Shown here one piece after another: positions 2,285 through 32,409 of a stretch of DNA of 64,000 nucleotides (its first letter is position 1; every line of letters starts with the position of its first letter). Where the stretch lies: positions 1-64,000 of the forward strand of contig CALLMV010000014.1 in assembly GCA_938005615.1 (NCBI GenBank), in the 5' to 3' direction. The notes beneath the pieces are model-generated. The model was given only the letters and a program-made list of their open reading frames with translations. It was not told where the DNA came from and did not search any database. Source of the stretch: an uncultured Verrucomicrobiae bacterium. GTDB lineage: Bacteria; Verrucomicrobiota; Verrucomicrobiia; JADLBR01; CALLMV01. Position numbers and translations under genes: made by a program.

Positions 2285-2454
2285 ATCTCGATTATGTGCC
2301 ACTGAGAGCCAGGCTGCAAGCACGCCGCACGAATCCGGAGATTCTCTCAACAACGCGTTACCACCCCTCGTTTCCGCTCAAAAAGCAGTCATTTTTACGC
2401 ACTGGCGAATTCTTTATCCTTGGCAATTTGGACTGTTAAACAACAATACCTTGC

Positions 2455-4401
2455 ATGGAAAGCATCGTCCGCGAGGCCTGTTCGGCTGGTCATATCTTAG
2501 TTAGTACTCGAGACAATATCCTGGCAGAGTTATCCCGCACTCAGCCCAATTCCTGGGAAACCCGCTCCATCGCCGAGCTCCTAGAAAAACAGCACTGGGC
2601 TGAGCTTAACGATCGCTTCTTTCGCAGACTGGCTTTCGGCACTGGCGGCCTGCGAGGACGCACAATTGGACGTGTGGTTACAACAGCCGAACAAGGCAAC
2701 GCGCCCGCAGGCACACGGCCTCAGTTCCCTGGCGTCGGCACTAATATGATGAATTTTGCAAACATCGAGCGGGCCACTCGCGGCCTGTGCCGTTATGTGA
2801 CCTCGCGCTTTCCCGACCAACGCTGTGCGCTTGTGATCGCGCATGATGTACGGCACTTCTCCAGAGAATTCTGCGATTTTACCGCACGCATCGCAACCAA
2901 CGAGGGATTTGATGTATTTATCTTCCCGGAAGAACGCTCCACTCCTATGCTCTCATTTGCAGTACGTCACCTCCGGGCGCATTGCGGCGTGGTGATCACC
3001 GCCAGCCACAATCCGCCATACGATAATGGCTACAAAGCTTACTTCGACGACGGGGCACAACTTGTCGAACCTGAAGCAACCGGTGTCATTCAGGCTGCCG
3101 CACAAGCTCAAATCACGGGGGACCACACTCCTAAAAATGGCGCGAAGATCACAACGCTCGGACCAGACATCGAGGAAGCTTACCAGGGCGTGCTTGCTAC
3201 CCTACCCTTGTCCGACACTCTGAAATCTGCTCCTCACAGCGTGCCCAAAGTTGTCTACAGCCCTATTCACGGCACAGGTGCACGCGCCATCCCAGAAGCC
3301 TTCAAGCGGCTCAAAATCGATTTCTCCGTCGTTGCAGAACAGGAACAGCCCGACGGCGACTTCCCGACTGTTAAATCCCCAAACCCCGAAAATGGGGAGG
3401 CCCTTTCCCTTGGCGTAGCATTGGCCAAAAAAACTGGGGCCACTCTGGTTATCGGCACCGATCCAGATAACGACCGTATGGGCATCGCCGTGCGCAAAGC
3501 TGACGGCGATTTTCAACTCCTCACTGGCAATCACATTGGCGCACTCCTGGCTTACCACCGCTGCAAAAAATTGACGGATGCCGGAATTCTGAACAGCCAG
3601 ACTCGCACGCGTGCCTGCCTCATCAAAACGTTCGTTACCACAGAGCTTCAAGCACGTATCGCAGAAAAATTCGGCGTCCGCCTTATTAACACACTCACAG
3701 GCTTTAAATACATAGGCCAAAAGCTACTGCGTTATGAGCGTGCAGTTTTGGCAGCACGACCCGACGTAGATTACCGCGCTCTTGACCACAACGCCCGGCG
3801 GGATTTGCAACTCCAACATGGCTGCTACTTCATCTTTGGCGGAGAAGAAAGCTACGGCTACAGCGGCACAGACGCCGTTCGTGATAAAGACGGCAATGCT
3901 GCGGCTGTCATGATTGTAGACCTCCTCGCCGAATCCAGCTCCATTGGTAAAAGCATCCTGGAATACTTAGATTCTCTCTACGCAGAATTGGGTTACTACC
4001 GGGAGAAGCTCGGTCAATTCGTGATGGAAGGTGCCGAAGGCGCTGCGAAGATACAATCTCTGCTTAAGAGTTACTTGGATCAACCACCAAAATCTTACCT
4101 CGGCCGGGCAGTCACCCGAACCATCAACCACGCAACAGAAACACTCTATGACGCAGATGGCGATGTGCTACCCAAAGAATTGATGTTGCAATTTGAATTG
4201 TCCAACGGTGCACGAATCATCATTCGCGGATCGGGCACTGAGCCCAAGATCAAATATTACCTTAGCTCCCATCGCGCAAACCTCACTGACACTCCTTGGA
4301 CAATTGAACACCTCTCGTTAATCAAAAGCGAAGTCGACTCGGAGGTTGAAGCCCTTTGGTCGGAAGTAGAGCGCGATGCGCTTCAACGAACTGGTGGCTA
4401 G
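2455..4401 (+). CDS. phosphomannomutase/phosphoglucomutase family (alpha-D-phosphohexomutase)
   Basis: TASHNPPYDNGYKAY phosphoserine loop, GTDPDNDRMGIA metal loop, GGEESYGYSG sugar loop, RGSGTEPKIKYY phosphate loop. Confidence 0.93.
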   Translation: MESIVREACSAGHILVSTRDNILAELSRTQPNSWETRSIAELLEKQHWAELNDRFFRRLAFGTGGLRGRTIGRVVTTAEQGNAPAGTRPQFPGVGTNMMNFANIERATRGLCRYVTSRFPDQRCALVIAHDVRHFSREFCDFTARIATNEGFDVFIFPEERSTPMLSFAVRHLRAHCGVVITASHNPPYDNGYKAYFDDGAQLVEPEATGVIQAAAQAQITGDHTPKNGAKITTLGPDIEEAYQGVLATLPLSDTLKSAPHSVPKVVYSPIHGTGARAIPEAFKRLKIDFSVVAEQEQPDGDFPTVKSPNPENGEALSLGVALAKKTGATLVIGTDPDNDRMGIAVRKADGDFQLLTGNHIGALLAYHRCKKLTDAGILNSQTRTRACLIKTFVTTELQARIAEKFGVRLINTLTGFKYIGQKLLRYERAVLAARPDVDYRALDHNARRDLQLQHGCYFIFGGEESYGYSGTDAVRDKDGNAAAVMIVDLLAESSSIGKSILEYLDSLYAELGYYREKLGQFVMEGAEGAAKIQSLLKSYLDQPPKSYLGRAVTRTINHATETLYDADGDVLPKELMLQFELSNGARIIIRGSGTEPKIKYYLSSHRANLTDTPWTIEHLSLIKSEVDSEVEALWSEVERDALQRTGG

Positions 4402-19154: not shown

Positions 19155-20070
19155 TGTGGCTAAAATCAACCCAGTGCCGCTCGGCGTTCCGAAAAAAGTC
19201 ACCATTTGCCGCAAATGGTTGACGGCAGAGAATGCGGCCCGCTGGTATGAACTGCACGCAGCGGATTACGACGGACAAGTGATCCTCTGCCGCGAGGAAC
19301 ACAGCAACCGCGCCCGGCTGGATTACTTTCCCCAAAATCTCGCCCAGGCCCGCGCATTCATGCGAGTGCACGGCGGTCGCTTGGTCGAGTTGACCCCCGA
19401 TGTGTGGTGGCACCCGGAGCGGCCGGACGCCCGCCCGCTGCTCTTCGGGCGAAGGCTCGCCATTGTGGTGAGCCAACCGCAGCGCGACTATTGGCGCGAG
19501 AAACTCCCCCGCCGCGAGATCCTCATCATCAGCGAGGGGATGGCTTTTGGCACCGGGCAACACGCCACGACGGCCATGTGCTTGCGACGCCTCGACGCGC
19601 TCGCACCACAGCTCCTGAAAAATGAACAACCCGCCATGTGCATTGATATCGGCACGGGCAGCGGCGTGCTGGCCATCGCCGCAGCGCGACTTGGTTTTCG
19701 CCCAGTTTATGCGATGGACAACGACCCAGTGGCCCTGCGCGTGGCCAAAGCCAATGCCCGCGCAAACTTAGCCCGCGTGAACTGGTCTGTGGGCGATGTT
19801 GCGAACTACGCTGCCCCAGCCCCTGCATCGCTCGTCTTCGCCAATCTGTTCAGCGGGCTTCTCATTGCCTCCGCACGCATCATCTCACAAAGTGTCGCCC
19901 GCGACGGTGTGCTGGTGCTCTCCGGGATTCGCCACGATCAGGAAAGCGAAGTGCTGCAAGCTTACAAAAAATTCACCCTTCGGCATCGCTCGGCCTTGCG
20001 CGGTTGGGTGTGCTTGGAGCTCCATCGTGCGCTTGGAGGTAAAAAAATCGAGAAAAGTGAAATTTCTTGA
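19132..20070 (+). CDS. prmA: ribosomal protein L11 methyltransferase-like
   Basis: GMAFGTGQHATTAMCLRRL and CIDIGTGSGVLAIAAARLGFRPVYAMDNDPVAL SAM motifs; exact start uncertain. Confidence 0.85.
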   Translation: MCPWAGGDVAKINPVPLGVPKKVTICRKWLTAENAARWYELHAADYDGQVILCREEHSNRARLDYFPQNLAQARAFMRVHGGRLVELTPDVWWHPERPDARPLLFGRRLAIVVSQPQRDYWREKLPRREILIISEGMAFGTGQHATTAMCLRRLDALAPQLLKNEQPAMCIDIGTGSGVLAIAAARLGFRPVYAMDNDPVALRVAKANARANLARVNWSVGDVANYAAPAPASLVFANLFSGLLIASARIISQSVARDGVLVLSGIRHDQESEVLQAYKKFTLRHRSALRGWVCLELHRALGGKKIEKSEIS

Positions 20071-20122
20071 AACTTGCGTTGTTTAGCTGGGTTTAATTTG
20101 ATGTTGTTGTTCTTTGTTCATT

Positions 20123-20214
20123 TGAGGCAGGGTCACGCAGGTTTAAGTAATTGTTCATGTTCTCTCCCATCTCGGTAATCCCATCTTAGGTCTGCGCCCC
20201 TGCCTCATTTTTTT
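20123..20214 (+). ncRNA. Candidate structured small RNA or extended prmA 3' hairpin
   Basis: Stem TGAGGCAGGG (20123-20132)/CCCTGCCTCA (20198-20207), then 12-bp helix CGCAGGUUUAAG/CUUAGGUCUGCG (with G-U pairs), 37-nt apical region, followed by T7. Confidence 0.5.
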
Positions 20215-20225
20215 GTTTTAGATTC

Positions 20226-20258
20226 AAAAAAAAGCCCGGTGTTATTCCGGGCTTTTTT
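20226..20258. terminator. Bidirectional intrinsic terminator between convergent prmA and rplQ
   Basis: AGCCCGG (20233-20239)/CCGGGCT (20247-20253) flanked by A8 and T6. Confidence 0.88.
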
Positions 20259-20278
20259 GTGTGAATTTTTGAGATGCT

Positions 20279-20743
20279 TTATTTTTTTGCACTCGGAGCA
20301 GCAGCGGTTTCCTCGGCTGGTGCGGAAGATGTGATAGTTTCCGTCCACTCCAGGAGGGCCATTTCTGCGGCATCGCTTGGCCGAGGGCCGAGTTTGAGGA
20401 CGCGGGTATAGCCACCGCGACGGTCTTTGAAGGCCGGAGCAATTTCCTCAAAGAGGATGCGAAGCACATTTTCGCGCTTATTCCAACTTTCGCGTTGCTC
20501 TTTAGTGCGAAGGTCAGAGGGACGGCGCAAGTGCAACGTGGCGGCTACAGTGCGCTTAGCATTGAGGTCGCCTTTTTTGCCTTGGGTCACCATTTTGTCG
20601 GCGAGGACGCGTGCAGCTTTGGCTTTAGCGACGGTTGTGGTGATGCGTTTATGTTTGATTAGGCTCTTAACAAGGTTGGCCAGCATGAGGTCGCGATGCT
20701 GGGAAAAGCGTTTAAGTTTGAGGGTTTTTGTGCGGTGTCTCAT
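20279..20743 (-). CDS. rplQ: 50S ribosomal protein L17 with Ala/Lys-rich tail
   Basis: MRHRTKTLKLKRFSQHRDLMLANLVKSLIKHKRI. Confidence 0.96.
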   Translation of the reverse strand: MRHRTKTLKLKRFSQHRDLMLANLVKSLIKHKRITTTVAKAKAARVLADKMVTQGKKGDLNAKRTVAATLHLRRPSDLRTKEQRESWNKRENVLRILFEEIAPAFKDRRGGYTRVLKLGPRPSDAAEMALLEWTETITSSAPAEETAAAPSAKK

Positions 20744-30352: not shown

Positions 30353-30988
30353 TTATCGTGCTGCCTCCTCTTTTCTACAGATCCAACATTTAACGCCGAT
30401 TCGGCCTGCTGGTGTGTGAGCTTCGGCAAAGCCGTAATCAACATCAGCGCGAAGTGTATGGAGGGGAACTTTGCCCTCCATGTATTGTTCTGTACGAGCG
30501 ATTTCCGCTCCACCGACACGACCAGATATGCGCACTTTGATGCCTTCGGCTCCGAAATCCATTGTTGTCTGAATAGCCTTTTTCATGGCACGGCGGAAAG
30601 AGATGCGCCGTTCAAGCTGGAGTGCGACACTTTCGGCAACGAGTTGTGCGTCTAGCTCCGGGTTTTTGATTTCTTTGACATCAACCGCAACTTCTGTGGC
30701 AGTGGTTAGCTTTGCCACATCAGCTTTTAGGGTATCGAGGTCGCTGCCCTTACGTCCAATGATGATTCCCGGGCGGGCACTAAAGATGTTAACTCTTACA
30801 CGGTTTGTTGCTCGCTCGATCACGACTTTGGATACGGCCGCCGTTGCTAAGCGCTTTTTAATGAAGTCCCTGATGGCGAAATCCTCGTGGAGGAAGTGTA
30901 AGTAGTCTTTTTTGTTAGCATACCAGACGGATCGCCAGTCTTTTTTGACTGCGAGACGGAAGCCGATCGGATTTACTTTTTGTCCCAT
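30353..30988 (-). CDS. rpsC: 30S ribosomal protein S3
   Basis: [24 protein letters not shown]...[12 protein letters not shown]. Confidence 0.97.
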
Positions 30989-31410: not shown

Positions 31411-32127
31411 TTAGCGTGTTTCCAGAGTGAGTGTTTGACCAATAGCCGGCAGGACACCGCCGACTTGTGCTACGAGTGCGCTGACGCTACGACGGGTTTC
31501 TATGACTCTCAGACGGCCAGCGCTTCCGTCAGAATTTTCAAATCGGTAAAGCATCCCCTCGATAATTCCAGATTCCCATCCGGCGTTTGCGATGAACCAG
31601 CCTTCGCGGCTGTCTTGAGCGATGATTGTAAGAGTCACTGGACTGTTGGGTGATCGAACGGGTGACTGCTGAGCAGAGCTAGAAGTATGGGCTTGAAGGC
31701 TGGCTATGGCTGCGGATGTGTCGAGCGTCATCATGCCAGAGTGCCTGATAGTTTCGATGAGTTGTGTTGAAAATTCGCGAAGTTTATCATTGGCCTCACG
31801 AAGGTCGGCTACTTCACGCAGTAGGGAAATCGCGCGCTCCTGTAGTACAGAGTCAGAACCGCTCAGCGCTGTGAGACCTAGTGCTGCATCGCGCATCTGG
31901 AACCGATCGAGCTGCGATTTATGGCGAATGTTTTCGAGGAGGGCTGTTTCGAGTGCTGCAGTGAGCACATCCAGCGCAGTGTTGGAGACTTCACTTGTTA
32001 GTAGGTCACTGTCTTGCGCAAGAAAGTCTGTGAGTTCAGGTAATGGCTGCGTTTGAGCGGATGCCATCCCTGCTACTACAACTGCTGCGGCGAGGCAGGC
32101 TAACAGTCTGGCTGGTGTGCGGCGCAT
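31411..32127 (-). CDS. Predicted exported coiled-coil protein of unknown function inserted between rpsS and rplV
   Basis: 238 aa; signal peptide MRRTPARLLACLAAAVVVAGMASAQTQ; heptad-like region around LQERAISLLREVADLREANDKLREFSTQL; C-terminal beta-rich GWESGIIEGMLYRFENSDGSAGRLRVIETRRSVSALVAQVGG; 2-3 bp from both flanking ribosomal genes. Confidence 0.85.
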   Translation of the reverse strand: MRRTPARLLACLAAAVVVAGMASAQTQPLPELTDFLAQDSDLLTSEVSNTALDVLTAALETALLENIRHKSQLDRFQMRDAALGLTALSGSDSVLQERAISLLREVADLREANDKLREFSTQLIETIRHSGMMTLDTSAAIASLQAHTSSSAQQSPVRSPNSPVTLTIIAQDSREGWFIANAGWESGIIEGMLYRFENSDGSAGRLRVIETRRSVSALVAQVGGVLPAIGQTLTLETR

Positions 32128-32130
32128 GGT

Positions 32131-32409
32131 TTATTTGGTGACTTTTTCAGTATGGGCTCCGTGTTTCTTGAATGTGCGTGTGGGTGAAAATTCTCCCAAT
32201 CGGTGGCCAACCATGTTTTCTGTAACGAAGACGGAATTGAAGACTTTTCCGTTGTGCACAAGAAAGGTGTGTCCAACGAAATCAGGGGTGATCATAGATC
32301 TGCGAGACCAGGTTTTAATAGGTTTCTTTTGTTTGGAGGCGTTCATTTTCTCGATTTTTTCCAGGACATGGTAATCAACGAACGGTCCTTTTTTGAGTGA
32401 GCGTCCCAT
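32131..32409 (-). CDS. rpsS: 30S ribosomal protein S19
   Basis: [19 protein letters not shown]...[16 protein letters not shown]. Confidence 0.97.

Follow-up and report, generated by a model that had tools for sequence, protein, structure and literature searches.

A predicted exported protein encoded between rpsS and rplV in the S10 operon of Verrucomicrobiota

In Verrucomicrobiota, a gene for a predicted exported protein, here called X, occupies the junction between rpsS and rplV in the S10 operon. The insertion is a trait of the phylum and is not private to a single metagenome-assembled genome (MAG). The string that it interrupts, rplB-rpsS-rplV-rpsC, is a standard example of gene order without tolerance for insertions. 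Judged by sequence comparison, X combines this slot with a signal peptide or anchor, central helices that are absent in one clade, a C-terminal barrel and, in close relatives, purifying selection. On balance we lean toward the view that X is an envelope protein. Its gene would have joined the S10 operon beside rplV no later than the common ancestor of Verrucomicrobiota and would have passed down vertically together with rplV, with a supply linked to growth.

The window, i.e., the whole stretch of 64,000 nucleotides that was analysed, comes from a MAG of 1.67 Mb that is 75.7% complete, and the X locus is part of an unbroken rpsL-rpsG-fusA-S10-spc run on a contig of 142,751 bp. Gene X (31411..32127, minus strand) is an open reading frame of 238 aa with an ATG start, recognised also from its relatives in the same slot. 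On the same strand, and identified from open reading frames and tblastn, rpsS (S19; 32131..32409) lies 3 nt upstream and rplV (L22; 30998..31408) 2 nt downstream, with rplB (L2; 32413..33246) and rpsC (S3; 30353..30988) as the further operon context. The coordinates, length and both spacers agree with the original prediction, which did not state the strand.

All five genomes examined from the order of the window encode an X-type protein in the rpsS-rplV slot, the other four X proteins being 19-21% identical to the window X over the whole alignment. Within the class, a profile built from these five proteins found matches in 320 of 384 genomes (E value 0.01 or better), a count that takes in paralogues and is not equal to 320 carriers of X. 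The best 25 matches in the class outside the order were fetched, and every one lies at rplV, 24 of them with rpsS on the other side; the contig of the remaining one begins within the X locus, and only its rplV side is visible. Same-slot X was found in dozens of families of the class, including the gut inhabitant Akkermansia muciniphila, Chthoniobacter and Udaeobacter, and also in other classes of the phylum; in the genome taken as A. muciniphila (G099) it is 236 aa long and lies on the minus strand at about 357,230-357,940. Scanning named genomes yielded 80 loci, which all come from Verrucomicrobia or its subgroups (Chthoniobacter, Terrimicrobiaceae, Candidatus Udaeobacter, Spartobacteria). 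In 78 of them the contig extends to both neighbours, and X lies between rpsS and rplV in every one. The recurrence of X in the slot of the four other genomes of the order, in many families and at all complete loci rules out an assembly artefact or chance. The window protein used alone as a query found no matches among GTDB contigs, because X diverges too fast and a closer alignment is needed.

The N-terminus of X, MRRTPARLLACLAAAVVVAGMASA/QTQ, has the look of a classical Sec signal peptide (residues 1-24; 32056..32127, minus strand), with a likely signal peptidase I site at ASA/QT and a helix over residues 6-20 in the structural model. Signal peptides of the window protein and of its relatives were judged by hydrophobicity and by eye, and a hydrophobic N-terminus is present in most same-slot relatives. 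The predicted coiled-coil region (residues 46-129; 31741..31992, minus strand) is modelled as two helices, 46-82 and 92-129, and has a conserved RDaALGl-AL motif; R79, D80, A82 and G84 are invariant within the order. The C-terminus is modelled as a six-stranded barrel of FlgT_C/TsaP-C type (residues 166-235; 31423..31632, minus strand), in blocks with a pLDDT of 89-97. Modelled in isolation, the barrel domain has a mean pLDDT of 91.3 and a pTM of 0.80. The best Foldseek match of this predicted structure is FlgT (TM 0.72, E ~8e-4, 12-13% identity), followed by the N-terminal barrels of F1/V1 ATPases. FlgT and these ATPase barrels are parts of rings; the likeness of the modelled barrel to the folds of ring proteins is no proof of an X ring.

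Sequence profiles point in the same direction with less force. The Pfam family FlgT_C gives weak matches in 22 of 75 X members at a limit of 0.1 (best E 2.7e-4) and is not among the Pfam matches listed for the window protein. Profile searches of the PDB matched the whole protein to MreC (9dvb, E 6.9e-5), over the coil and the first strands, and the barrel domain to TsaP (E 7.7e-4). The MreC HMM (PF04085) has weak matches in two of the 75 members, and the MreC family matches above the cut-off lie at other loci, with X not among them. LysM does not occur among the Pfam matches listed for the 75 members, and Pfam and NCBIfam searches with the window protein alone returned coiled-coil noise or nothing. 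A viral origin of the barrel was considered and rejected, with no BFVD match at an E value of 0.001 or better. On this evidence FlgT_C, TsaP and MreC are weak relatives of the X barrel by sequence, and no curated family covers X. The structural match to FlgT, the weak FlgT_C matches and the MreC profile match uphold the expectation of an exported coiled-coil protein with a beta-rich C-terminus of FlgT/MreC type.

X occurs in several forms. Long forms have about 205-320 aa, forms in other classes of the phylum 129-321 aa, and short forms, which consist of signal peptide and barrel only, 108-130 aa. The short forms all belong to one clade, within which falls a genome of 5,957,605 bp that we take to be Opitutus terrae and that itself lacks X. 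Since this clade keeps only signal peptide and barrel, the coiled coil is not a constant part of X. The barrels of the own-order, long, short and other-class forms align with one another at hhalign E values of 1e-14 to 1e-27, compared with 0.1-0.5 for column-shuffled controls; the window barrel matches the HMM of the class forms at 1.2e-7 (Z=1000), and for the own-order profile the hhalign E value is 5e-27. Barrel homology thus indicates that all forms of X are one family. The window X is the most divergent of its order, with an HMM E value of 1.2e-7 compared with ~5e-22 or better for the other four, a difference that its ribosomal proteins do not share; either accelerated evolution or weakened constraint along the lineage of the window may lie behind it.

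To place these forms in a phylogenetic context, we used a FastTree phylogeny of 137 genomes based on rplB, rpsS, rplV and rpsC. Carriers of X on the tree comprise 52 genomes with long forms, 12 with short forms and 15 with X upstream of rplV in split operons, and they fall in all main subdivisions; their share is not a population frequency, because the slot survey selected its genomes family by family and favoured those with weak or absent matches. Presence and absence of X require 14 changes on the tree, the labels being far more clustered than when shuffled, and a clade of 32 sampled genomes, among others, is without X. From its occurrence in every main subdivision and the approximately 14 changes, X is probably ancestral and has been repeatedly lost, which is a reading by parsimony because the deep branching is weakly supported and the rooting arbitrary. 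Distances between X proteins correlate with ribosomal distances (Mantel rho 0.52, compared with a maximum of 0.15 over 999 permutations), the pattern that vertical descent should produce.

Where genomes have an empty slot, their best matches elsewhere reach 27-72 bits, compared with 179-254 bits for true X, and mostly have 250-280 aa, like the unlinked paralogues described below. Relocation of X in these genomes is therefore disfavoured and loss is the simplest reading, so that the repeated absence of X is best read as loss. For f10 the matches outside the slot have E values of 1e-17 to 1e-20, and X may there have been relocated rather than lost. The gap between rpsS and rplV at empty sites is mostly 1-20 nt, an internal control that fits the premise of the original prediction that this junction is normally uninterrupted. 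A genome of 0.9 Mb (G020, locus L077) has a relic gap of 148 nt where G093 (L092), from the same genus, has a full-length X, which points to a recent loss of X with genome reduction. Another genome (G058, locus L041) has a gap of 552 nt between rpsS and rplV (1453-2004) with no recognisable X, i.e., a decayed copy or another insert. Since X has been lost from whole clades and from the 0.9-Mb genome, it is not universally required, and cells can either do without its function or replace it.

Several families outside the class have an S10 operon that is split precisely behind rpsS (loci L114, L115, L117, L125-L129, L135-L138, L145, L150, L152, L155 and L156), at the junction that elsewhere holds X. 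Of the 24 genomes with split operons that were tested, 18 have X upstream of rplV at a distance of 1-117 nt; two of the 18 were assigned by inspection, the HMM alignment given for them being that of a different stretch. Because X stays with rplV when the operon splits, its constant partner is rplV and not rpsS.

X is under purifying selection in close relatives. The median dN/dS over 44 close pairs of related X genes is 0.14, compared with 0.08 for rplV; these pairs are not independent, and the window gene is in none of them, being too distant even from its nearest relatives. Orthologues in the slot and purifying selection in relatives are both present, so that the original prediction withstands the refuting condition that it had set for itself.

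How X might be expressed was assessed from its spacing, start sites and codons. Across X loci the median spacing is 12 nt before X and 11 nt after it, and X usually starts 4-23 nt past the rpsS stop codon, often with a weak or missing Shine-Dalgarno sequence. Shine-Dalgarno sequences of at least four matching bases precede 28 of 78 X starts, compared with 23 of 60 for rplV; with strengths this similar, X has no special signal. The codon adaptation of X is 0.60, the tested ribosomal genes having 0.64-0.73 and the other genes of the window a median of 0.57. This ordinary value is uninformative as a sign of high expression of X. The earlier proposal that X synthesis is locked stoichiometrically to that of ribosomes finds no support here; the codon adaptation of X is below that of the ribosomal genes. 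The close spacing and common strand suggest co-transcription and translational coupling, and hence a supply of X that follows ribosome synthesis.

The favoured reading, in which X is an envelope protein resident beside rplV since in or before the ancestor of the phylum, would work as follows. X would share a transcript with the S10 genes, owe its translation mainly to coupling with rpsS just upstream, and be exported by Sec. It would then oligomerise through its coiled coil, and its barrel would serve in the periplasm as a scaffold or as part of a ring or anchor, like the C-terminal domains of FlgT and TsaP, an envelope scaffold role that its architecture suggests. As a consequence of operon position, the supply of X would rise and fall with ribosome synthesis, i.e., with growth, and X could in this way couple growth to envelope biogenesis.

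Alternatively, X could be an ordinary envelope protein that landed in the operon by chance and was kept as its excision risks polar damage, its position having no regulatory meaning. A passenger in this strict sense would be expected to disappear or move more often than X, which keeps to rplV even in operons split after rpsS, and the purifying selection on X in relatives also argues against it. The widespread loss of X with its neighbours unharmed (gaps of 1-20 nt), the relic gap in G020 next to the X kept by its congener G093 and the ordinary codon adaptation of X are what a passenger would be expected to leave. The same holds for unlinked paralogues of the same build. One such protein, in the window's own genome (L291:1492-2244; G000:C23 about 19912-20463), has 250 aa with an N-terminal anchor, a coiled coil and a barrel, and matches the family profile at an E value of 1.5e-12. 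A. muciniphila has a tandem pair of the same architecture outside any ribosomal operon (L286:1484-2260 and 2308-3123; about 1,478,000-1,479,600), and similar single unlinked genes are found in most genomes of the class, including most without X. We regard the passenger as rather unlikely, although it stays a candidate because many lineages have lost X.

X might also be a second MreC-like protein, an elongasome scaffold that couples peptidoglycan synthesis to growth. MreC too has a signal anchor, a coiled coil and barrels, which agrees with the profile match to 9dvb and the weak MreC HMM matches in two or three members, and A. muciniphila (G099) carries X and gave no MreC family match above threshold, whereas other X carriers have one. 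However, most genomes tested have mreC as a gene of its own, with true mreC at other loci in seven X carriers (G001, G003, G004, G042, G163, G447 and G384) and also in G010, which lacks X; moreover, X has one barrel, and its isolated domain is closer to FlgT and TsaP. We consider this role improbable. We give very little credence to a scheme in which X would link growth to the envelope and its export or stalling would feed back on translation of rplV and of the downstream ribosomal and secY genes, setting ribosome supply and envelope or secretion capacity together. Slightly less still is due to a SecM-like secretion monitor, in which the export status of X would tune translation of the downstream rplV genes: a signal-peptide gene tightly upstream of rplV, and kept there when the operon splits, would suit it, but the C-terminal residues of X are barrel residues with no invariant SecM-type arrest motif at a fixed distance from the stop codon, some spacers are longer than 60 nt, and dozens of families are without X.

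The molecular pieces of X are of known kinds, and their combination and place are not described in the literature searched, which lay outside most subscription journals and held no account of these bacteria having a gene inserted between rpsS and rplV. An ancient, phylum-wide and predicted exported resident of the S10 string offers a clear natural example in which to study why genes enter ribosomal operons. A hypothetical protein of Akkermansia and of soil Verrucomicrobia gains a predicted fold, relatives and a testable role, and X becomes a candidate for a rare genomic marker that unites the classes of the phylum. Its position in the S10 operon suggests that production of this proposed envelope component may be linked with the growth of the cell.

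Among known systems, the PVC signature protein CT421.2 resembles X in being lineage-restricted and without an assigned function; it has about 53 aa and occurs also in Chlamydiae and Planctomycetes (PMC3444138). It was rejected as a counterpart of X, being much smaller and present beyond Verrucomicrobiota. MreC (PF04085; PDB 9dvb) has an N-terminal anchor, a coiled coil and a beta barrel as in X, but it has two barrels, and X lies in an S10 context and not with mreB and mreD. The C-terminal domain of FlgT from the Vibrio flagellar H-ring (PF16538; PDB 3w1e, 8z5n) is exported and has a barrel fold like that modelled for X, whereas X, which has a coiled coil, contains none of the remaining FlgT domains and stands in a ribosomal rather than a flagellar gene context. 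Akkermansia carries X though it is non-flagellated. TsaP, the type IV pilus secretin-associated LysM protein (PDB 3jc8), has a C-terminal barrel motif like that of X but differs in gene context and in LysM, which is not among the Pfam matches listed for X; it is not known to have a coiled coil comparable to that of X. Finally, the non-ribosomal genes of the S10-spc-alpha region (secY, adk, map, infA and fusA) are, like X, co-located with ribosomal genes across a clade. Their products are cytosolic or belong to the translocon and have functions linked to protein synthesis, whereas X is predicted to be exported.
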